Source: Methylovulum sp.
GTDB lineage: Bacteria; Pseudomonadota; Gammaproteobacteria; Methylococcales; Methylomonadaceae
DNA: 64,000 nt
Direction: 5' to 3'
Assembly: GCA_028712695.1 (NCBI GenBank)
Contig: JAQTQZ010000010.1
Span: 1 to 64,000, forward strand
The position numbers were made by a program, and so were the translations under genes. Under the pieces are notes generated by a model that did no database searches, was not told the DNA's origin, and saw only the letters and a program-made list of their open reading frames with translations. Positions 2,097 through 40,760 of this stretch are shown here, piece by piece (the stretch's first letter is position 1; each line of letters begins with the position of its first letter).

Positions 2097-2690
2097 TTAT
2101 GAATAACAATACTGGGCGATATGGGGCGTTTGGAGTAAATCAGGCGCGGTGTTGCTCGGCAAAATTGCCATGACTAATTTATCGACAACACGCAGGACAT
2201 CTTCTTTGCTACGGGCATCAAGGCGCGTGACTGCGCAACTAAAACCATGATCGCGGACATACTGATGATATTCAATCAGTAAGGTATTGGTGTTGTTGTC
2301 GTCATAGTGGGTAATGGCGACAATTGCAGGATATTTCTCTAAAAAATCTTTATGAAATTGCAGGAAATAATTCAATTCACCTAAAGGGTTGGTATGGCCG
2401 TTATCAATCATAATAACCATGCCTTTTGCACCTTTGCATAATAGGCTGGCCATAAAGTCAAAGCGCCGTTGCCCAGGTGTGCCGTAAATGTGTAGCTTAG
2501 CGCCATGAAGATGGACAATGCCGTATTCCAACGCGACAGTGGTTGAAGGCTTGCGGTGCAGGGCGTCAGCTTCACTCGCTTTAGCCTCTGTGCCCGCAAT
2601 TGGCACTTCGCTGATTGCATTAATGCTTGATGTTTTGCCAGAACCTACATTGCCGACAAAAACCAGTTTAAGCGCTTTTGAATGATTCAT
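2097..2690 (-). CDS. small Ras/Mgl-like GTPase (paralogue 1)
   Basis: A 197-aa P-loop GTPase of the bacterial MglA/SRPRB-like group. The P-loop GNVGSGKT is at residues 13-20, a threonine-rich switch I region follows near residue 50, and the G3 region reads YGTPGQRR. The position expected for the NKxD base-specificity motif reads ITHYDD, so nucleotide preference is uncertain. It has no N-terminal extension, unlike its close paralogue at 33312-34046. It lies 176 bp downstream of the 237-aa gene and may be transcribed with amt. Partner Roadblock proteins are not adjacent here. Cellular role unknown; signalling is inferred from the family. Confidence 0.8.
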   Translation of the reverse strand: MNHSKALKLVFVGNVGSGKTSSINAISEVPIAGTEAKASEADALHRKPSTTVALEYGIVHLHGAKLHIYGTPGQRRFDFMASLLCKGAKGMVIMIDNGHTNPLGELNYFLQFHKDFLEKYPAIVAITHYDDNNTNTLLIEYHQYVRDHGFSCAVTRLDARSKEDVLRVVDKLVMAILPSNTAPDLLQTPHIAQYCYS

Positions 2691-2866: not shown

Positions 2867-3580
2867 CTAAAAGAAGCGGGAAGGCGGGAACAGCCTGGCC
2901 TCCGGTTTTTGTTCGCAATATGCGACCGCTCTATGGAATGCGTTATCGGCATTAATAGGCCCTAAAATGTCGCATAGTGTGGTGTAAACCACATGCACCA
3001 AGTCAGCCAGCATTTTTTCGTTAAGTGCTGTTGCCCAATCGAACTTGTCGGGGCTGTCCGCCCATTGCATGATGAGGTCGAAACTTTGTTTGTTTTGTTG
3101 GCTGTCGCCTTTTACATGCTCTAGCATGATGGGGAAGAAATCCACATCATCCGCCAGGCCGGCAATAATCTGCTGCATAAAATACGAAAATATTAAGACA
3201 GGTAACGGCAGCGCTGCTGTCTCCTCAGGGAGGGGCGGTTGTGGTGCTGGTGCAGCGGCGGGTGCTGGACTAGGTTCTACGGCTTTTTTGCTAAGTGTGG
3301 ATTGCTTATTGCCCTGCGCTAAGGCCAATGGGTCTACTAATGAGTCGGTATTTTCAAACATCATCTGGTGGAAGCGGCTATACAAGGATTTGCGTATTTC
3401 CCCTCCGATCCCAAATTCTGTGCATATTTTGCTGATATAGGCAATCAAGTTACTGACGCTGTCAGTCTGATACCCCCGCTCTAATATTTGCACCGATTCC
3501 ATAAGCTGTTGTTCGTTAAGAAATGGCTGGAAGCACGCCCAGGCCACTTTTCTTCTGCGTTGTCTCATCTCATGATTCAT
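2867..3580 (-). CDS. uncharacterised 237-aa protein between amt and the GTPase
   Basis: No family recognised. The protein has a basic N-terminus, a helical segment to about residue 95, a proline/alanine-rich linker around residues 100-125, and a second helical segment to the C-terminus. No signal peptide or membrane span is visible. The start is 13 bp after the amt stop with an AGGTGG-like ribosome site, which points to co-transcription with amt. The two-lobed layout next to a GTPase suggests an adaptor or regulator (inference only). Confidence 0.7.
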   Translation of the reverse strand: MNHEMRQRRRKVAWACFQPFLNEQQLMESVQILERGYQTDSVSNLIAYISKICTEFGIGGEIRKSLYSRFHQMMFENTDSLVDPLALAQGNKQSTLSKKAVEPSPAPAAAPAPQPPLPEETAALPLPVLIFSYFMQQIIAGLADDVDFFPIMLEHVKGDSQQNKQSFDLIMQWADSPDKFDWATALNEKMLADLVHVVYTTLCDILGPINADNAFHRAVAYCEQKPEARLFPPSRFF

Positions 3581-3592
3581 GGTCGGCCACCT

Positions 3593-4792
3593 CTATGCGT
3601 CTGCATCTAAGCGTTTTTGAAATTCAGGGTAACCTATCTCAAAATGCTCGGTGTAATCCAAACCGCGCTGTTCATGCAACGTTGACGCTTTAACACCCAA
3701 GCTTTTGTCCAGCAGTTTAAAGAAACCGTAAGCAACCGGAAATGCCCACAAAAATCCGGCAACTACTCCGGCCAACTGCACTAAGAGTGCCGAAAAGCTA
3801 AAATCGCCTTGCGGAAACAGCGCCACCGCGAGTGTTCCCCAAGTACCGGCAACGCCATGCACGGCAACCGCCCCGACCACATCATCCAGTTTGAATCTGT
3901 CCAATAGATCAACGGCGATAAGGTAAAAAACTCCGCCCACCAAGCCGGCAATAATCGCCGTCAGTGGCGATAAAGTCGCCGCCCCTGCGGTGATGCTGAC
4001 TAAACCGGCAATACTGCCATTGATGGTGGCTGACAGTAAGATGGGCCGTTTTTTCAGATACATAAATAGCAAAGCGCCTAAGCCACCCGCACATCCGCCC
4101 AAGTGGGTGTTTAACAAGATCAGGCCTAAATTATCCTGTTCTAGGCTGCTGATACTGCCGCCATTAAAACCAAACCAACCCATCCATAAGATAAAGCCGC
4201 CTAACGCCACAAACGGCAGGTTATGGCCTGGGATTTCCCGTGTTTCTCCTTGTCTGGAATAGCGTCCCAACCGGGGGCCTAATACTATAATGCCAGCTAA
4301 CGCGCACCATCCGCCAATTGAATGAACCACAGTAGATCCGGCAAAATCGACAAATCCTAAAGTCGCCAGCCAGCCGTTTGCGTTCCATGTCCAACTGCCA
4401 AACACAGGATAAATAATGCCCGTCACTATGGCGCTAAAAAATAGGTAAGCCGTAAAGTGCATCCTTTCCGCCACTGCCCCGCTCACAATAGTCGCTGCTG
4501 TGGCGGCAAACATGATTTGATAGGCCAGTTTTATCGCTTCCGTATTAGTCAGCTGTTGGGAGAAAAATTGGTCTATGCCTAACCAGCCTGTTGGGTTATC
4601 GCCAAACATTAAACCAAAGCCCAATGCCCAAAAAAGTATCCCGCCCAAACACATATCCATGTAATTCTTCATTAATACGTTAACGGAGTTTTTTGCCCGT
4701 GCCGCCCCCGATTCCAGAAAAGCAAATCCTGCCTGCATAAAAAACACCAGCACCACGCATACCGCCACCCAAACAAGCTGTAGTTCACTCAT
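3593..4792 (-). CDS. amt: ammonium transporter Amt
   Basis: Inner-membrane Amt/MEP/Rh-family channel taking up ammonium. The 399-aa sequence shows the family N-terminal stretch ending in FAFLESGAARAKN, about eleven hydrophobic segments, and the twin pore histidines in contexts FAGSTVVHSIGG and GAVAVHGVAG. The C-terminal cytosolic tail needed for PII control is present (VKASTLHEQRGLDYTEH). A sigma-54-type promoter and an NtrC-like site lie upstream, so expression should rise under nitrogen limitation. glnK, the usual neighbour, is missing; the 237-aa protein and a GTPase follow instead. Confidence 0.95.
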   Translation of the reverse strand: MSELQLVWVAVCVVLVFFMQAGFAFLESGAARAKNSVNVLMKNYMDMCLGGILFWALGFGLMFGDNPTGWLGIDQFFSQQLTNTEAIKLAYQIMFAATAATIVSGAVAERMHFTAYLFFSAIVTGIIYPVFGSWTWNANGWLATLGFVDFAGSTVVHSIGGWCALAGIIVLGPRLGRYSRQGETREIPGHNLPFVALGGFILWMGWFGFNGGSISSLEQDNLGLILLNTHLGGCAGGLGALLFMYLKKRPILLSATINGSIAGLVSITAGAATLSPLTAIIAGLVGGVFYLIAVDLLDRFKLDDVVGAVAVHGVAGTWGTLAVALFPQGDFSFSALLVQLAGVVAGFLWAFPVAYGFFKLLDKSLGVKASTLHEQRGLDYTEHFEIGYPEFQKRLDADA

Positions 4793-33311: not shown

Positions 33312-34046
33312 ATGAACATACAACACATACAACGCATAGAACCGGTAAGATTTACAGATGTAGCCGCTACAAATGAAAATTACGTTAGCGTTAGGCCTTT
33401 AGAAAAGCGGGTATATCACAATACGGTAACGGTAGTTTCAACCGGGCCAAAAACAGGTTGGACAATACTGCCAGAGCAGCATCGGCAAGAGAGCGCCGTA
33501 AAAAATGAAGTTAAAGTTATCGTAGTGGGTAATGTCGGCTCAGGTAAATCAACGTCTATCAGGGCAATCAGTGAAATACCCGTTGTCGGCACCGAAAGCA
33601 AAGCCACTGAGCGTGATGCCTTGCGTCGAAAAGAAACCACCACAACTGCTATGGAATATGGCATAGTCCATATAGAAAGGATCAAGCTGCATATTTACGG
33701 CACGCCAGGGCAAAGACGGTTCGATTTTATGGCAGATATTTTGTGTAAAGGCGCTTGCGGGATGGTGGTCATGATTGATAACGGTTGCCTTGATCCGTTA
33801 ACTGAAATCAGCTATTACCTAAATCAACACGGCAGTTTCTTGCAAAAATGTCCGGGCATAATCGCCATCACCCATTTTGATGACCACAACACCCGCACCA
33901 GTTTATTGGATTACCACACCTATATTCGTGACAATGGCTTTACTTGTCCGGTCATGTTGCTTGACGCACGCAATAAAAATGACATGCAGAAAGTGCTGAT
34001 GAAATTGCTGTTGCAAATCAGCGATTCAAAAATTGGCAAAAAATAA
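33312..34046 (+). CDS. small Ras/Mgl-like GTPase with N-terminal extension (paralogue 2)
   Basis: A 244-aa P-loop GTPase closely similar along its domain to the protein at 2097-2690 (shared GTE(S/A)KA, EYGIVH, LHIYGTPGQRRFDFMA, LCKGA, MVIMIDNG-type stretches). The P-loop GNVGSGKS is at residues 73-80, after an extension of about 70 residues lacking a signal peptide. The G4 position reads ITHFDD rather than NKxD. It heads a co-oriented set with a Roadblock/LC7 protein, the usual regulator or dimer partner of Mgl-type GTPases. Confidence 0.82.
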   Translation: MNIQHIQRIEPVRFTDVAATNENYVSVRPLEKRVYHNTVTVVSTGPKTGWTILPEQHRQESAVKNEVKVIVVGNVGSGKSTSIRAISEIPVVGTESKATERDALRRKETTTTAMEYGIVHIERIKLHIYGTPGQRRFDFMADILCKGACGMVVMIDNGCLDPLTEISYYLNQHGSFLQKCPGIIAITHFDDHNTRTSLLDYHTYIRDNGFTCPVMLLDARNKNDMQKVLMKLLLQISDSKIGKK

Positions 34047-34275
34047 CCAATCCAAGTGTTATTGCACTATCTGGTATTCTGATTGCTGTATTTTCTTAAG
34101 GCGGACGACTGGAAATTAAGGTAGCCTATTAATATATTTTATTATGTGCTTAAAAATCGTAAATTAGTTGCCTAATTATGCCAAAATACCTTTAACTTCT
34201 TAAGGCTATATGCCTAAGAATTAGTTGTATAACCCTTAAAAGTAACCCTTAAAAATTAAAGTACGGAGAAAAACC

Positions 34276-34683
34276 ATGGCAAAACTTGATGATCTTTTAC
34301 AAGAAGTTGTTTCTAATGTTGACGGCGCTTTAGGCTGTGCCGTTGTCGATTTGAACTCAGGTCTGTTGATGGGCGTTGCCCATAACGTGCCTTATTTTAC
34401 GTCATCTTACCTAGAAGCGGTGGCGGCGGCGGCGGTTGATATGTTGCGTGGTAAAAATGTCCGCGCGGTTGAGTCTTTGCTATCAAGCCAACGTGGCAAA
34501 CCGGTGGAAAAAACCATTCAAGAAGTGCAAATGACCACCGAAAAAACGCTGCATTTTATGGCCTTGATTAAGGATAAACCGGATTACCTAATGGTGCTGA
34601 TCACCAGCAAAGTGACCAATCTTGGTATGGGCTGGGCCGCTGTGCGCAACAACATGACTAAGATTGCGCCTTTGTGCCCATAG
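34276..34683 (+). CDS. Roadblock/LC7-domain protein
   Basis: A 135-aa single-domain protein of the Roadblock/LC7 (MglB-like) fold: LDDLLQEVVSNVDGALGCAVVDLNSGLLMG, and a C-terminal strand-helix ending MGWAAVRNNMTKIAPL. In MglAB the equivalent dimer acts as GTPase-activating protein. The ATG follows a CGGAGAAA ribosome site. It is 229 bp after the GTPase gene and 91 bp before the next ATG, so a shared transcript is likely. Confidence 0.85.
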   Translation: MAKLDDLLQEVVSNVDGALGCAVVDLNSGLLMGVAHNVPYFTSSYLEAVAAAAVDMLRGKNVRAVESLLSSQRGKPVEKTIQEVQMTTEKTLHFMALIKDKPDYLMVLITSKVTNLGMGWAAVRNNMTKIAPLCP

Positions 34684-34774
34684 TCTGAACCGATCAACAC
34701 CAACAGATAAACCCCTAGGGGAGGCAACTAAACACGGCCTCTCCACACTTGCCATTCAAACATTTAACCGCTCT

Positions 34775-36340
34775 ATGTCAACGATAGAACTGATCGGCGC
34801 AGTCGACGGAAAACATCACTATAATGCAGATCATATCGCTGGGTTGTTAGCCACAGAGCGTGAAAAATTAGCCGTTGGCACGGCCTTCACTGGTCGGCCT
34901 GATACGTGTATTTACGCCAATGGGCAGAATGTGGTCAAGATCCGTGCCGAACTTGATTTAAGCCATGAGAACGCCAGAAAATGGACGGCTAATGTCTTAC
35001 AGCAGGAACAACAACTGGCTGTCCATCATCCCCATAAGACTTGGTTCATTATTGATAACCAAAGCAATGCCACCGTTTTGGTCGGCAGCATCTGTCCGCA
35101 GTTAAAGCCATTGAATATAGAGCTGAAGCCTAGTCCGCAAACCCCTCCAATGCGGGAACAATACCTCGATATTCTGGCTGACATGTTCGAAAAATATCTG
35201 TTACTGGCAAAAAGGCACGGATACAAACTTGACGAAGGTCTGTCCAACTTTGCCGTAGACGATAAGGGGGACGTGTATTATCTGGATGATGAGTATTATT
35301 CTTGGGACAATTTTATTGCTTTTTCCGTTATGTTGGGCGTTTTTATCCGCACTTATGAGTGGCTGGATGAAGCCTTTATGGCGAAATTGACTGGCATATT
35401 GATTGGACTGGTTGATGGGATTTTTGAGGATCCTCATTGCCGCACCATCATAAGCACGCAATTGCAGTCGTTGTTTATGCCGTCGGAAGAAAAAGAGTGC
35501 TTGTTAAAAAAATTGCTCACTGGGTTGGCACAATCCCCCATTACCTCCGCAGTGCACTTGGCCAACAAAGAACAGCTCAACGCCCGAAAAAATAATAACA
35601 ATCGCTATTACGCGGTTATGGCAGACATCCATGCCAACGATGCCGCGCTGGATTGCGTGCTGGACTTTTACCGTGAACAAAAAATCACCCAAGGGATTAT
35701 CTTAGGCGATATTGTCGGTTACGGCCCCGAACCGGCGTACTGCATAGAGCGGCTCCAAGAATCCACTTTTGAAATCATCAAAGGCAACCACGACTATGCC
35801 GTTGCCACAGGCAACACTAGCCGGGGGTTTTCTGGCAATGCCATAACCGTTATTGACTGGACTATCGGGCAGTTAAACCAGCAACACCGTGATTGGTTGG
35901 ACAGCCTGCCCGTCTTCTCGCGCAACCAGCACTGGCTTGCCGTCCATGGTGCGCCGATAGATCCGGCATTTTTTTATGGCTATGTCTATCAAATGACCGC
36001 CGAAGAAAATTTGGATTGCCTGCAACAAAAAGCCATCCCCTTATGCTTGCACGGCCATTCACATATGCCTGGGGTCTATGCGCGGGATCGCTATCAGCGC
36101 GACCACCATTGCACTGAAGACAAAGTGGATTTAAGCGCCTATGCCCATAGCTTGGTTTGTCCAGGTTCAGTCGGCCAGCCCAGAAACGGACGGCGAGAAA
36201 CACAATGTGCCGTCTATGACCGCGAACTTCAGGAAATGGTGTTTGTGGCACTGCCTTATTGCGTTGATTCTGTAGTCGAAAAAATGCAGCGCTATGGCTT
36301 GTCGGACAAACTATGGCAACGTTTACAAACGGGAAAGTAA
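34775..36340 (+). CDS. kinase-like / metallophosphoesterase fusion protein
   Basis: About 521 aa from the ATG at 34775 (upstream in-frame TTG at 34664 overlaps the Roadblock gene and is unlikely). The C-terminal half is a calcineurin-like metallophosphoesterase with all motifs: DIH 284-286, GD 311-312, GNHD 337-340, VHGAP, and HGHSH 426-430. The N-terminal ~260 residues contain features resembling a protein-kinase-like fold: a VVKIRAEL strand, a VGSICPQLKPL hinge-like stretch, LDEGLSNFAV (HRD-like) and YYLDDEYYSWDN (DFG-like). The kinase resemblance is my inference. Substrate unknown; it could reverse or make a nucleotide or phosphoprotein signal for the GTPase. Confidence 0.7.
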   Translation: MSTIELIGAVDGKHHYNADHIAGLLATEREKLAVGTAFTGRPDTCIYANGQNVVKIRAELDLSHENARKWTANVLQQEQQLAVHHPHKTWFIIDNQSNATVLVGSICPQLKPLNIELKPSPQTPPMREQYLDILADMFEKYLLLAKRHGYKLDEGLSNFAVDDKGDVYYLDDEYYSWDNFIAFSVMLGVFIRTYEWLDEAFMAKLTGILIGLVDGIFEDPHCRTIISTQLQSLFMPSEEKECLLKKLLTGLAQSPITSAVHLANKEQLNARKNNNNRYYAVMADIHANDAALDCVLDFYREQKITQGIILGDIVGYGPEPAYCIERLQESTFEIIKGNHDYAVATGNTSRGFSGNAITVIDWTIGQLNQQHRDWLDSLPVFSRNQHWLAVHGAPIDPAFFYGYVYQMTAEENLDCLQQKAIPLCLHGHSHMPGVYARDRYQRDHHCTEDKVDLSAYAHSLVCPGSVGQPRNGRRETQCAVYDRELQEMVFVALPYCVDSVVEKMQRYGLSDKLWQRLQTGK

Positions 36341-36341
36341 A

Positions 36342-37619
36342 ATGAGACGGTACACAATCAAATATGTTGGTTTTGATCTGAGCCAGCAAGAGGCAATCTC
36401 AGCTATCTTGGATTTGGCTGAATCAGCCTTGACCGATACTTGGTTGGTCACGGATGACCCGGACAGTGATATAGCCATGATCAATCTGGATGCAAGTGAC
36501 GGGCAACAGCTTTTAACGGCAGAACTGCAGCTTCGGCCTGCCTACCGCATTATTTTGGTGGCTGAACACAACGGCATGGAAATTGACACCTGCTGGTTTT
36601 TAGCAAAAAAACATCAGGCGCCACCCAGCTTAAGGGAACTTAACACGCTCCTCAATGAAATCGCCATAGTGTTGGCAGAAGCCGCCCAAGCGGCTTTAAC
36701 AGCACCAACAAGTCCGGAAAACAATGGCGAAAACATCGAACCGGAAGTGCTGCCTGACGTGGCTGAAGATAACAGCCAACCAGAGCCAGCTATAAACATC
36801 GGGCCAGAAGCATTGCCTGACGTGGCTGAAGATAACAGCCAACCAGAGCCAGCTATAAACATCGGGCCAGAAGCATTGCCTGACGTGGCTGAAGATAACA
36901 GCCAGCCAGAACCAGCTATAAACATCGGGCCGGAAACATTGCCTGACGTGGACGAAGACGACAGCCAGCCAGAACCCGTTAAAAACACCGTACCCTTAAC
37001 GCGGCCGTTATATCCCAGAAACTATTTTTTTGGCCTGCTCTTGCAAGCCAAAAAAGACAGCGCTTGTCGGGTGATAAAACGGAATAAACAGACAAGCCTG
37101 TATTTGTCGCCATCTGAAAACAGCTATTACTTTACCGGATCGGCAGCTGATTTATTGGCATACTGCACGGCTTCACCGCAGTACCTGGAAGAAACGGTCG
37201 TCACCAAACAGCGGTTGGCTAAAATACTAAAAAGCGGGAAGGAATTAAACGCACAACCGTTAGATGAACTGCTTGTGTATGCCATTATTGAAGTCTCCCA
37301 AGGGCGCTTGTTAGAAGGCCATTTCCCTGAACAGGCCTTCAAACTGACCCAGTTGCCGGATGTAAATAAAACGCCCACGCTGGTGAACTATAAAAAAATC
37401 GCTGAATTTATGCACAAACAGCCGGGCAATTTGTTTGAGGTTGCCGAAGCGTTGCAAATTCCTCTTTCAACTATTTTTGAGTTTTACAATGCTTGCTATC
37501 TTTTGGGTTATTTGACAGTAGAGACAGCAACAAAAATAGAATCAGCGCCTATTGAACCCAAAAAAACTGGGAAATTAAGCAATTTTTTAAAAACCTTACG
37601 CGAGGGTAAAATCTTTTAA
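36342..37619 (+). CDS. acidic tandem-repeat protein of the GTPase operon
   Basis: About 425 aa from the ATG at 36342, one base after the preceding stop, so tightly coupled. Residues 1-110 form an alpha/beta domain with an acidic patch (TDDPDSDIAMINLD) slightly reminiscent of a receiver domain. Residues 135-218 are four 21-residue repeats (consensus EALPDVAEDNSQPEPAINIGP). Residues 220-425 include a probable winged-helix-like stretch (NLFEVAEALQIPLSTIFEFYNACYLLGYL). No membrane span. Possibly a flexible scaffold or output protein; function unknown. Confidence 0.65.
   Translation: MRRYTIKYVGFDLSQQEAISAILDLAESALTDTWLVTDDPDSDIAMINLDASDGQQLLTAELQLRPAYRIILVAEHNGMEIDTCWFLAKKHQAPPSLRELNTLLNEIAIVLAEAAQAALTAPTSPENNGENIEPEVLPDVAEDNSQPEPAINIGPEALPDVAEDNSQPEPAINIGPEALPDVAEDNSQPEPAINIGPETLPDVDEDDSQPEPVKNTVPLTRPLYPRNYFFGLLLQAKKDSACRVIKRNKQTSLYLSPSENSYYFTGSAADLLAYCTASPQYLEETVVTKQRLAKILKSGKELNAQPLDELLVYAIIEVSQGRLLEGHFPEQAFKLTQLPDVNKTPTLVNYKKIAEFMHKQPGNLFEVAEALQIPLSTIFEFYNACYLLGYLTVETATKIESAPIEPKKTGKLSNFLKTLREGKIF
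36744..36995 (+). repeat. four tandem 63-bp coding repeats
   Basis: Units begin at 36744, 36807, 36870 and 36933; units 2 and 3 are nearly identical in DNA, unit 4 is the most diverged. They encode proline- and acid-rich 21-residue repeats, so copy number may vary between strains. Confidence 0.9.
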
Positions 37620-37637
37620 CGCAAGAGCGCCAAGTGC

Positions 37638-37712
37638 GTAGGTTGGGGTGAGGCACGAACCCCAACGCATCGAAGCGGCAAATGTTGGGGTTCGTGCCTC
37701 ACCCCAACCTAC
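37638..37712. repeat. GTAGGTTGGGGTGA inverted repeat (copy 1)
   Basis: A 75-bp near-perfect inverted repeat beginning GTAGGTTGGGGTGAGGC and ending in its complement, directly after the tandem-repeat gene. Repeats of this sequence type are scattered in many proteobacterial genomes; a second copy is at 38614-38689. Confidence 0.9.
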
Positions 37713-38457: not shown

Positions 38458-38613
38458 GGTTTTGAACGCCTCTGTTCTGTTTTTTCCAACGCTTTGGCAT
38501 TAGCCGGTAGATACCGTCTTGCCGACAAAAAAGCAACCGATAATTAAGTGGCATAATTGGGGTCAAAAGGTTTGCCCGATTTAAGTACGCCGAAAGCAAT
38601 ATGAATAAGGGCC

Positions 38614-38689
38614 GTAGGTTGGGGTGAGTGTGCGAACCCCAACATTTGGCGCTTCAATGTGTTGGGGTTCATGCTTCACCCCAACCTAC
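38614..38689. repeat. GTAGGTTGGGGTGA inverted repeat (copy 2)
   Basis: A 76-bp inverted repeat of the same family as 37638-37712; the outer arms match copy 1, the loop differs. It occupies part of the 311-bp gap between the lipoprotein and lectin-like genes; the remainder shows no gene. Confidence 0.9.
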
Positions 38690-38767
38690 GTCCCTACGCC
38701 TGCAATCTTAACCGCACAAAGCAGCAACAGCAGCCATGCGCGGCATGAGTGCAATGTTTCGGATTTG

Positions 38768-39682
38768 TTAGAACGTGGTGTCGCCTAATAGCGCACCGGT
38801 GCTGCTGTCGCGGGTTTCAGCCTTAGGGGTGTTTTTGGTTTTGTGGATGCCTAACACGGTGATTTCACTGGCGCCATTGTTGTTGGCATCGGGTGATACG
38901 GTGATGAGTTGGGGGTTATAACCACCAGCCAAAAAGCGTATTGTGTTCAGGTTGGTTTTGTTGTTTTTGGCATCCTTGATTATGACTGAAGGCTGGCCAA
39001 ATTCAGAGTACAACACGCCGATTTCAGGCACGCCGTTGCCATCAATGTCTTCCAGCGCAACAAGGCCTTGCGGGGCTACCAGGCCGTTTTTAAAGGTCAG
39101 CGTGCTGAGCAGGGTTTCGGTTTTGGGGTCGCGGATTTTGACGGTGTGTTTGGTGGTGACGTAATCGACGTATAACGCGGCGATTTCAGCGGAGCCGTTG
39201 TTGTTCATGTCGGGGAGGACAGCCAGGCCGACGTAGTTGTCGGCGCTCCATTCGCAGATGTAGGTATATGTGTCGGTTGCAGACGCAACTCTCCAACCTT
39301 CATTGAATCTTGAAAGCACATAATCGTTGCCATCATTATCTCGCCAATATTGATAAACCCATTTTTCTCCAGTGACCCAAGTAAACCGCCCTTCCACAGC
39401 GGCATCGGAGCCGCCTATCCAAAACTGTCCGTCAGACAGGCTATTATAAACAAACCCACGTTCCGCCTCGGACGTGATCGTCACCAAATGCGCGCCCAAC
39501 GCTTGGCAATTCTTTTGTGCATTCGCCCAAGTGACCGACTGGTCGAAGCGTTGGTAAAAATGCTGGTTGGTTTTCCATTGGATGCGCAGGCTATCCGCCT
39601 GCACATCGGCGGCTAGTGAGAACAATACGGCACTGCCTAAATACAAGGCACACGTTAGCGTTTTTTTGTTGTTGTTAAACAT
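38768..39682 (-). CDS. secreted C-type-lectin-like / VCBS-type repeat protein
   Basis: 304 aa with an N-terminal signal peptide (cleavage near residue 29). Residues about 40-145 have the C-type lectin pattern: FDQSVTWANAQKNCQALGAHLVTITSEAE, FWIGGSD, FTWVTGEKW and a terminal YICEW. Residues 150-300 hold three FG-GAP/VCBS-like repeats (DMNNNGSAEIAALYVD, DIDGNGVPEIGVLYSE, DANNNGASEITVLGIH) that probably bind calcium. Exported ligand-binding protein of unknown target. Flanked by repeats on both sides. Confidence 0.8.
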   Translation of the reverse strand: MFNNNKKTLTCALYLGSAVLFSLAADVQADSLRIQWKTNQHFYQRFDQSVTWANAQKNCQALGAHLVTITSEAERGFVYNSLSDGQFWIGGSDAAVEGRFTWVTGEKWVYQYWRDNDGNDYVLSRFNEGWRVASATDTYTYICEWSADNYVGLAVLPDMNNNGSAEIAALYVDYVTTKHTVKIRDPKTETLLSTLTFKNGLVAPQGLVALEDIDGNGVPEIGVLYSEFGQPSVIIKDAKNNKTNLNTIRFLAGGYNPQLITVSPDANNNGASEITVLGIHKTKNTPKAETRDSSTGALLGDTTF

Positions 39683-39896: not shown

Positions 39897-40085
39897 TTGG
39901 TGAAGTTTTTTTGTTGACAATTATGCGTTTATATAGCAGCTGGCTGTAGCGCGGCTTCGCGCCAGCAAGCCGCCGCGTTTGGATAAATACGGATTGCCTA
40001 ACGGTTAAGTGGGAAGCCGATAAAACGACACACCACCGTGATGGGCAGGGTTGAAATGGTTTAATTTGCTGATTATCAGCCACAG

Positions 40086-40106
40086 CTATATACTTTGCCT
40101 ATATAC
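40086..40106 (+). promoter_or_regulatory. possible vapBC promoter/operator
   Basis: Direct repeat CTATATAC at 40086-40093 and 40099-40106, 13 bp apart and overlapping TATATA -10-like hexamers, 23 bp upstream of the vapB start. Such short repeats often bind the VapBC complex for autoregulation; this is inferred from position. Confidence 0.35.
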
Positions 40107-40128
40107 CTCTGCCAACAAGGAAAATACC

Positions 40129-40362
40129 ATGCTACAAGGTTCTGTTTTTGTTAATAATAAAACCCAGGCGGTGCGCTTGCCGGTGGAAGCCCGTTTTGAT
40201 GCACAAGTTAAAAAAGTGTCCATCCGCACGAACGGTAAGGAACGCATCTTGTGTCCGGTTGAAAACACCTGGGACAGTTTCTTTTTAACCGACCAGCAAG
40301 TGACAGACGACTTTCTCGCTACAAGAGCGGAACAAACAGAAGCCATTCGGGAAGCGTTTTAA
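40129..40362 (+). CDS. vapB: antitoxin VapB (AbrB/SpoVT type)
   Basis: 77-aa antitoxin. The swapped-hairpin DNA-binding N-terminus is recognised by GSVFVNNKTQAVRLPVEARF; the C-terminal tail should neutralise the toxin. The ATG at 40129 after AAGGAAAA is chosen over an upstream ATG at 40051 that adds unrelated sequence. The stop overlaps the vapC start (TAATG). Confidence 0.9.
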   Translation: MLQGSVFVNNKTQAVRLPVEARFDAQVKKVSIRTNGKERILCPVENTWDSFFLTDQQVTDDFLATRAEQTEAIREAF

Positions 40363-40760
40363 TGCTGAAATACATGCTTGACACCAACATTGTCATTTAT
40401 GTGATTAAACGCCGTCCGCTTGAGGTGTTGGCGACCTTTAACCAACATGTGGGGCAACTGTGCATTTCCAGCATTACCTTGGCTGAACTGCTGCATGGCG
40501 TGGAAAAAAGCGCCCAACCTGGGCATAACCTGCGGCAGGTTGAAGATTTTGTTTCGCGTCTGGATGTGTTGGAATACACCGCAAAAGCGGCGGGCCATTA
40601 TGGCGATATTCGGGCGAACCTGGAAAAACAGGGCAGTACAATAGGGGTTAATGACCTGCATATTGCCGGCCATGCGCGCAGTGAAGGCTTGATTTTAGTG
40701 ACTAACAATAGACGGGAATTTACACGGGTTGAAGCGTTACGCCTTGAGAATTGGGTGTGA
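40362..40760 (+). CDS. vapC: toxin VapC (PIN-domain ribonuclease)
   Basis: 132-aa PIN-domain endoribonuclease that usually cleaves tRNA or rRNA. Acidic site residues are in MLDTNIVIY (Asp7), LAELLHGVEKS and GVNDLHIAGHA. It overlaps vapB, forming a complete type II toxin-antitoxin pair. Located in a repeat-rich stretch, a typical accessory setting. Confidence 0.93.
   Translation: MLKYMLDTNIVIYVIKRRPLEVLATFNQHVGQLCISSITLAELLHGVEKSAQPGHNLRQVEDFVSRLDVLEYTAKAAGHYGDIRANLEKQGSTIGVNDLHIAGHARSEGLILVTNNRREFTRVEALRLENWV

Follow-up and report, generated by a model that had tools for sequence, protein, structure and literature searches.

A roadblock protein and a kinase-like/metallophosphoesterase fusion as recurrent partners near an MglA-type GTPase gene of Methylovulum sp.

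Genes and domains of the locus

We analysed a 64,000-nucleotide stretch of Methylovulum sp. (here called the window; GenBank assembly GCA_028712695.1, contig JAQTQZ010000010.1, positions 1 to 64,000), which comes from contig C65 of a 3.79-Mb genome (G000). Four plus-strand genes in it encode, in this order, a small GTPase of the MglA type (244 aa), a roadblock protein (RB, 135 aa), a fusion protein (KIN-MPE, 521 aa) that joins a kinase-like domain (KIN) to a metallophosphoesterase domain (MPE), and a protein with a repeat-bearing acidic linker (REP, 425 aa; Table 1). A preliminary description of the locus, made from the sequence alone, had presented them as a tightly spaced four-gene operon; the order and common orientation are as described and the last two genes are indeed 1 bp apart, but the preceding gaps measure 229 and 91 bp, the first of them too wide for the set to be called tightly spaced. 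Across related genomes the conserved unit proves, robustly, to be the roadblock gene together with KIN-MPE, and not the four-gene operon.

The collection comprises 59 KIN-MPE loci from 58 genomes (G258 contributes two), and at 58 of these loci the two domains are fused in a single protein chain, the 59th (L063) ending at a contig edge; short KIN matches in two further genomes (G753 and G843) are likewise broken off by contig ends. The MPE domain exceeds the Pfam cut-offs for Metallophos PF00149 (3.4e-11) and PF12850, has its closest PDB match in 3rqz (E 5.4e-45) and lies nearest to uncharacterised phosphoesterases, with YfcE-type phosphodiesterases matching below cut-off. In a residue census of domains with a coverage of 75% or more (57 of the 59 KIN and 58 MPE domains), all seven metal ligands of MPE (D284, H286, D312, N338, H391, H426 and H428) are invariant in 58/58 relatives, and KIN shows G40, K55, D153, N158, D171 and D172 in 57/57 sequences and E78 in 56/57, with W90 and Y169 also invariant. 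The catalytic K, E, D, N and D of KIN stand in order and with kinase spacing. In protein kinases the last three of these are spaced D-x4-N-x12-D, and at 95% conservation this pattern is found in KIN and in two of 29 other alignments (several of these with few rows), namely those of protein kinase and APH; together with the upstream K and E it is found in the KIN and protein kinase alignments only. The profile searches tried gave no believable Pfam or PDB match for KIN, and an AlphaFold model made from only two sequences (the window and L009) has a predicted local distance difference test score (pLDDT) of 37, too low for the model to be used. A search for viral relatives returned 30 pattern matches and no true relative. 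In KIN-less genomes, two genes of 530 aa that adjoin RB (L150, L152) were considered as diverged KIN-MPE and rejected, with no profile or Pfam sign of such a relationship.

None of 17 RB members matches Pfam Robl_LC7 at E<=1, but a profile of 36 RB relatives matches MglC in the PDB (E 1.6e-4); 32 of the 35 other rows of this alignment are 51-93% identical to the window RB, and the remaining three are 26-40% identical. A two-sequence AlphaFold model (pLDDT 65, residues 61-87 below 50) shows its elements in the order typical of roadblock proteins, and among PDB folds it most closely resembles MglC, MglB and a Streptomyces roadblock protein (E 4.9e-6 to 3.0e-5), with 27% identity to MglC in the fold alignment. 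In hhalign comparisons RB links at 83% to a cluster of further roadblock proteins (C6, Robl_LC7-positive by its representative), which is present in 13/59 loci and absent from the window, and at 26% and 2% to two other roadblock clusters. An MglC-like protein with a roadblock/LC7 fold is thus supported by the profile match and the predicted structure. Other recurrent neighbours of KIN-MPE include a cluster of about 125 aa (C5, 14 loci) that reaches 73% against C6 in hhalign, one of about 211 aa (C7, 13 loci) that usually adjoins a GTPase, and one of about 240 aa (C11, 7 loci) that lies between roadblock and KIN-MPE; representatives of all three are without a Pfam match above cut-off.

The GTPase carries the P-loop GNVGSGKS at residue 73, GTPGQ at 130, THFD at 187 and DAR at 218, that is, a G4 motif without lysine and a DAR-type G5, and it exceeds the Pfam cut-offs for ATP_bind_1 and Roc and, by a narrow margin, those for Ras and MMR_HSR1. 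A profile of 14 GTPase relatives picks out MglA and Rab proteins among PDB entries; T110 and T111 (a threonine replacing the G2 arginine) are invariant in 14/14, and the G3 motif reads GTPGQ in 52 of 53 GTPases examined and STPGQ in one. In a tree of these 53 proteins, the window GTPase clusters with N-terminally extended paralogues (G010, L051, L052, G063, L054) and apart from the GTPases of about 180 aa that belong to REP-GTPase-roadblock operons. By its sequence it is a member of this second paralogue clade and not of the operon type. The genome encodes six GTPases of the family (E<1e-20), and its operon-type member lies on another contig (C43), with its own REP before it.

At L143 (contig C43), 783-7403, this operon-type REP-GTPase pair stands directly upstream of genes resembling those for haem d1 synthesis (a cytochrome D1 haem domain, two NirDL-like proteins and a radical SAM protein), and in the nearest relative of the window genome (G016, L154) REP-GTPase is followed by genes of similar size. 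The window itself holds another GTPase of the same family at 2097-2690 (-), next to a 237-aa gene at 2867-3580 (-), for which no Pfam match was found, and an ammonium-transporter-family gene at 3593-4792 (-); counterparts of the latter two (71% and 92% identical) adjoin the GTPase at L154.

No Pfam match above cut-off was found for REP. Its alignment with 11 relatives shows conserved ends and a linker variable in length and make-up; in the window protein the linker contains a 21-aa (63-nt) repeat, with 25 acidic and 2 basic residues among residues 121-225, and this repeat is not seen in the REP of the nearest relative. Related operons carry this type of protein ahead of the GTPase; the window REP is a second copy of it, and such a REP after KIN-MPE is found at five other loci. 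The preliminary description had named a Ras/Mgl-like GTPase, a likely Roadblock partner, metallophosphoesterase motifs and an acidic repeat protein, and the Roadblock assignment has gained a profile match and a predicted fold for a protein that Pfam does not see.

Table 1. Coordinates of the four genes, their domains and the tandem repeat within the window
Feature	Coordinates	Strand	Basis
MglA-type small GTPase, N-terminally extended paralogue	33312-34046	+	motifs, Pfam, tree
RB, roadblock/LC7-fold protein (predicted), MglC-like, 135 aa	34276-34683	+	profile match, predicted fold, co-occurrence
KIN-MPE, whole gene	34775-36340	+	
KIN, kinase-like N-terminal domain of KIN-MPE	34775-35524	+	residue conservation
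MPE, calcineurin-like metallophosphoesterase domain of KIN-MPE	35600-36340	+	Pfam, PDB 3rqz, residue conservation
REP, conserved N- and C-terminal parts with acidic variable linker	36342-37619	+	alignment
63-nt tandem repeat, 3.8 copies, encoding part of the REP acidic linker	36751-36987	+	repeat search

Co-occurrence of the roadblock protein and KIN-MPE

RB and KIN-MPE are present or absent together in samples of the family, the class and the phylum (a roadblock match is called strong at E<1e-40 in genome searches and at E<1e-30 in loci). The full-length query matches 36/237 family genomes, 26 of which hold the KIN-MPE subfamily (including G250 and G253, with MPE fragments only), and nine genomes that match in the MPE part alone were scored KIN-less, as was G247 with its 48-residue remnant. 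Strong RB is found in 23/26 KIN-bearing family genomes and in 0/211 others (23/27 versus 0/210 with G247 scored KIN-bearing), and within one genus in 8/8 versus 0/12. The class sample contains KIN-MPE in 14/369 genomes, all 14 with RB, compared to 3/355 of the others with strong matches and 9/355 when weak ones are included. In the phylum sample 33/398 genomes contain KIN-MPE, 29 of the 33 belonging to one family (f212) of a second class, which is probably the Zetaproteobacteria, as inferred from the sample design. RB occurs there in 28/32 KIN-bearing genomes versus 0/41 (strong) or 2/41 (weak) of a hand-picked set of KIN-less genomes, chosen by handle number, and within f212 in 25/29 versus 0/15. 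That the two are present or missing jointly even within one genus and within f212 favours a functional pair, and they very probably act together; in three f40 genomes both are present, on different contigs.

Neighbourhoods were examined for 34 of the 45 KIN-bearing class and phylum genomes besides the window genome (class 13/13, phylum 21/32), and locus counts were made in six frames, with the long N-terminal extensions of some loci being artefacts of open reading frame calling. Within 9 kb of KIN-MPE, RB is found at 51 of the 59 loci (49 at E<1e-30), a GTPase at 36 and REP at 18, so that the four-gene operon of the preliminary description does not stand as a unit. The 49 strong roadblock genes lie upstream on the same strand in 27 loci, convergent downstream in 18 and otherwise in 4. 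The order GTPase-roadblock-KIN is collinear on one strand in 13/59 loci, and REP-GTPase-RB-KIN in 10/59. In the nearest relative (G016, L040), RB (97% identical) and KIN-MPE (83%) lie side by side, with REP (about 50%) after them; among named relatives, the closest found is the Methylococcaceae metagenome-assembled genome UBA6146, with a KIN-MPE protein of 83% identity. GTPases at E<1e-75, a threshold picked after seeing the list, occur in 17/24 KIN-bearing versus 1/28 KIN-less family genomes.

Genes for haem or di-iron proteins also recur near KIN-MPE: nine loci have a two-domain globin (Globin plus Bac_globin), four a protoglobin and seven an ODP-family protein, all named from representatives (one each for the protoglobin and the ODP-family protein). 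A globin profile built from seven of the nine two-domain members (two were left out for uncertain starts) was run on 80 of the 109 listed genomes, a choice of our own that mostly dropped less complete ones. The full-length two-domain globin is found in 18/43 KIN-bearing versus 0/37 KIN-less genomes, and in 10/35 versus 0/37 (p 3.4e-4) after removal of the eight genomes in which it had already been seen near KIN; partial matches to the truncated-globin half (5 KIN-bearing, 3 KIN-less genomes) were not counted. In two of these ten the globin adjoins REP-GTPase (G258, L209) or roadblock plus GTPase (G221, L210), and in the other eight no module gene lies within the 10-17 kb around it.

With respect to further neighbours, an ABC1-type kinase gene lies near KIN-MPE in eight loci (L052, L054, L060, L123, L126, L127, L131, L140), most of which also hold a glyoxalase-like gene. 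In the window, a palindromic repeat with 29-nt arms of 100% complementarity (37637-37712) directly follows the fourth gene; a related copy in inverted orientation lies about 1 kb further on (38608-38695), and the whole looks like a repeated element. Beyond it lie a gene for a C-type lectin domain protein (38768-39682, -) and a small gene pair (40051-40760, +) which, read from its translation, is presumably a VapBC-type toxin-antitoxin. Promoter-like matches show no excess (10 versus a mean of 9.0 in shuffles), and terminator-like matches number 12 versus a shuffle mean of 6.7 (standard deviation 2.8), but 11/12 are on the minus strand.

A possible phosphate switch and its alternatives

The preliminary description had suggested a GTPase switch with a partner that would control or erase a phosphate signal, and this inferred scheme stays the best reading. 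In it, RB would dock on KIN-MPE and regulate it, relaying the state of the MglA-type GTPase, and KIN would write and MPE erase phosphate on a shared target, which may be a protein (perhaps REP, with its putative receiver-like part, or RB itself) or a small molecule; the GTPase would thereby set the balance of writing and erasing. In genomes bearing them, the two-domain globin, the protoglobin and ODP, as haem or di-iron proteins, could feed the switch, and REP might pass the output to transcription, provided that its end is a winged helix like that published for such proteins. It is fairly likely that KIN transfers phosphate or nucleotide. That KIN and MPE serve one target as a reversible phosphate switch gated by GTPase and roadblock protein is a proposal for which we see the chances as evenly divided, and an input from gas sensing in the globin-bearing genomes is conceivable though somewhat doubtful. 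More tentative still is the suggestion that KIN founds a new kinase family whose kinase/phosphatase balance is set by an MglC-like RB and an MglA-type GTPase, with a globin gas sensor upstream. If true, it would describe a bacterial pathway in which a small GTPase links O2 or NO to reversible phosphorylation, and KIN would be a kinase-like family, possibly a new one, that neither Pfam nor the PDB contains.

A number of observations weigh against this switch. In hhalign, KIN scores under 1% against APH, protein kinase and ABC1, and since these known families inter-link at 93-97% as positive controls, homology of KIN to kinases is not shown; the likeness to kinases proposed earlier for the N-terminal half rests, as far as its sequence goes, on the catalytic motifs only. 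The ABC1 alignment lacks the D/N/D spacing in the same test, and because ABC1 is a real kinase family the spacing is not decisive either way. KIN-MPE occurs without an RB homologue in G196, a genome estimated to be 100% complete (the other KIN-bearing genomes without strong RB are the fragment cases G250 and G253, and also G753, G806, G843 and G876, estimated to be 95, 87, 70 and 57% complete). Seven of the 59 loci have neither strong RB nor a GTPase nearby, a search at E<1e-20 finds no GTPase of the family in the KIN-bearing genome G260, and the roadblock gene of the nearest relative has no GTPase upstream of it. Outside the class, 13/13 locus GTPases retain the G4 lysine and cluster in a clade of their own; KIN-MPE is therefore not restricted to GTPases resembling those of the Group 3 MglA systems discussed below. 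Moreover, genes near KIN-MPE were the source of the GTPase and globin profiles, a choice that favours KIN-bearing genomes, and related genomes are not independent, which inflates the Fisher values. The window genome itself has no two-domain globin in the profile search, and gas sensing is therefore a lead for the family rather than for this genome.

Other explanations of the same genes have to be weighed. KIN-MPE may act on nucleotides or other small molecules, with MPE hydrolysing a nucleotide signal and KIN working as a nucleotidyl or small-molecule transferase, which together would give a second-messenger set-point tied to the GTPase. The catalytic motif of protein kinases is HRD....N, in place of which KIN carries LD....N, and the nearest relatives of MPE (uncharacterised and, below cut-off, YfcE-type enzymes) suit this idea, as does its PDB match 3qfm, which we take to be a dinucleotide-polyphosphate hydrolase. 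MPE has, however, weak below-cut-off matches to protein-serine/threonine phosphatases as well, no ligand evidence speaks for a small molecule, and a near-obligate partner of the roadblock type suggests that control is exerted by protein contact; we consider this explanation unlikely, though worth keeping in mind. KIN could also be a pseudokinase or an unrelated fold that docks the roadblock protein or the GTPase, leaving MPE as the sole enzyme, switched by docking. Such a role would agree with the hhalign result and with W90 and Y169 as possible binding residues, but pseudokinases usually lose some catalytic residues and the G/K/E/D/N/D set is near-invariant in 57 sequences, and we find this account improbable.

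The locus might also be a Group 3 MglA system of the ordinary kind, for polarity or type IV pili, with KIN-MPE as a peripheral accessory. The GTPase and REP features agree with the description of such systems in the available text of PMC4316618, and three class genomes (G437, G498, G619) have the GTPase set and strong RB without KIN; the class sample as a whole, with RB in every KIN-bearing genome and rarely elsewhere, nevertheless ties this RB subtype to KIN-MPE, and we hold a merely accessory KIN-MPE to be quite unlikely. An anti-phage defence island, to which the patchy distribution of KIN-MPE and a short MPE stretch resembling NCBIfam DS9_1_antiphage (E 0.0017, 17.3 bits, cut-off 420) might point, was rejected as highly improbable on the PADLOC result, which shows nothing for RB, KIN-MPE or REP at E<=0.01 and, for the GTPase, a single P-loop match of 38 residues. 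The different placement of the GTPase in the nearest relative could suggest chance neighbours in one genome, but for RB and KIN-MPE this is refuted by their co-occurrence in three samples, and as an explanation of the locus it is scarcely credible; for the window GTPase a chance position is possible.

Comparison with known systems

AceK and HPr kinase/phosphorylase are bifunctional kinase/phosphatases that hold opposite activities in one polypeptide; unlike in these enzymes, KIN and MPE are two separate domains. The roadblock fold is common to RB and the MglC and MglB proteins of Myxococcus xanthus (PDB 7ct3, 6hjm), and MglC is the best PDB match of RB both by sequence profile and by predicted fold, but RB differs from its M. 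xanthus counterparts in being tied to an enzyme gene. This near-obligate enzyme partner would offer a biochemical handle on the role of a bacterial Ras-like GTPase outside Myxococcus, and the link to two-domain globins suggests a testable input, possibly O2 or NO, in methanotrophs and relatives.

Group 3 MglA systems of beta- and gammaproteobacteria were described from genomes in 2014 (PMC4316618, Wuichet & Sogaard-Andersen), with, according to the available text, a GTPGQ motif, a G2 threonine, a G4 without lysine (THFD/THYD) and DAR in G5, one or two MglB-type proteins, and a neighbour protein with conserved ends, a variable linker and receiver-like and winged-helix parts. The window GTPase motifs, RB, and REP with its conserved ends and variable linker are all of this kind. 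The preliminary description had known of no such combination; GTPase, roadblock and linker protein were already published, but the text available for PMC4316618 mentions neither KIN-MPE nor another enzyme partner, which, as far as that text goes, makes the KIN-MPE enzyme the new part. The locus further differs from Group 3 in its second REP after KIN-MPE and its N-terminally extended GTPase, and in that nearby GTPases in the second class of the phylum keep the G4 lysine. Among the papers found in literature searches on MglA, roadblock proteins and small GTPases, no title or abstract start describes a roadblock/GTPase combination with KIN-MPE.

The Group 3 mgl locus of Snodgrassella has mglA with more than one mglB, and the portion of PMC11112851 available mentions no kinase-like or phosphoesterase gene there. 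A globin is linked to a roadblock domain in another methanotroph, in the Methylacidiphilum protein HGbRL (PMC4476040, available text), where the two are fused, unlike the separate two-domain globin seen here. In organisation, the nearest analogue is to be found in the Streptomyces conservons, which, as far as described in the available parts of PMC4316618 and PMC13343842, place a roadblock protein, a small GTPase, a kinase gene and an extra protein in one operon; their enzyme is a membrane histidine kinase, that of the Methylovulum locus a kinase-like/phosphoesterase fusion.

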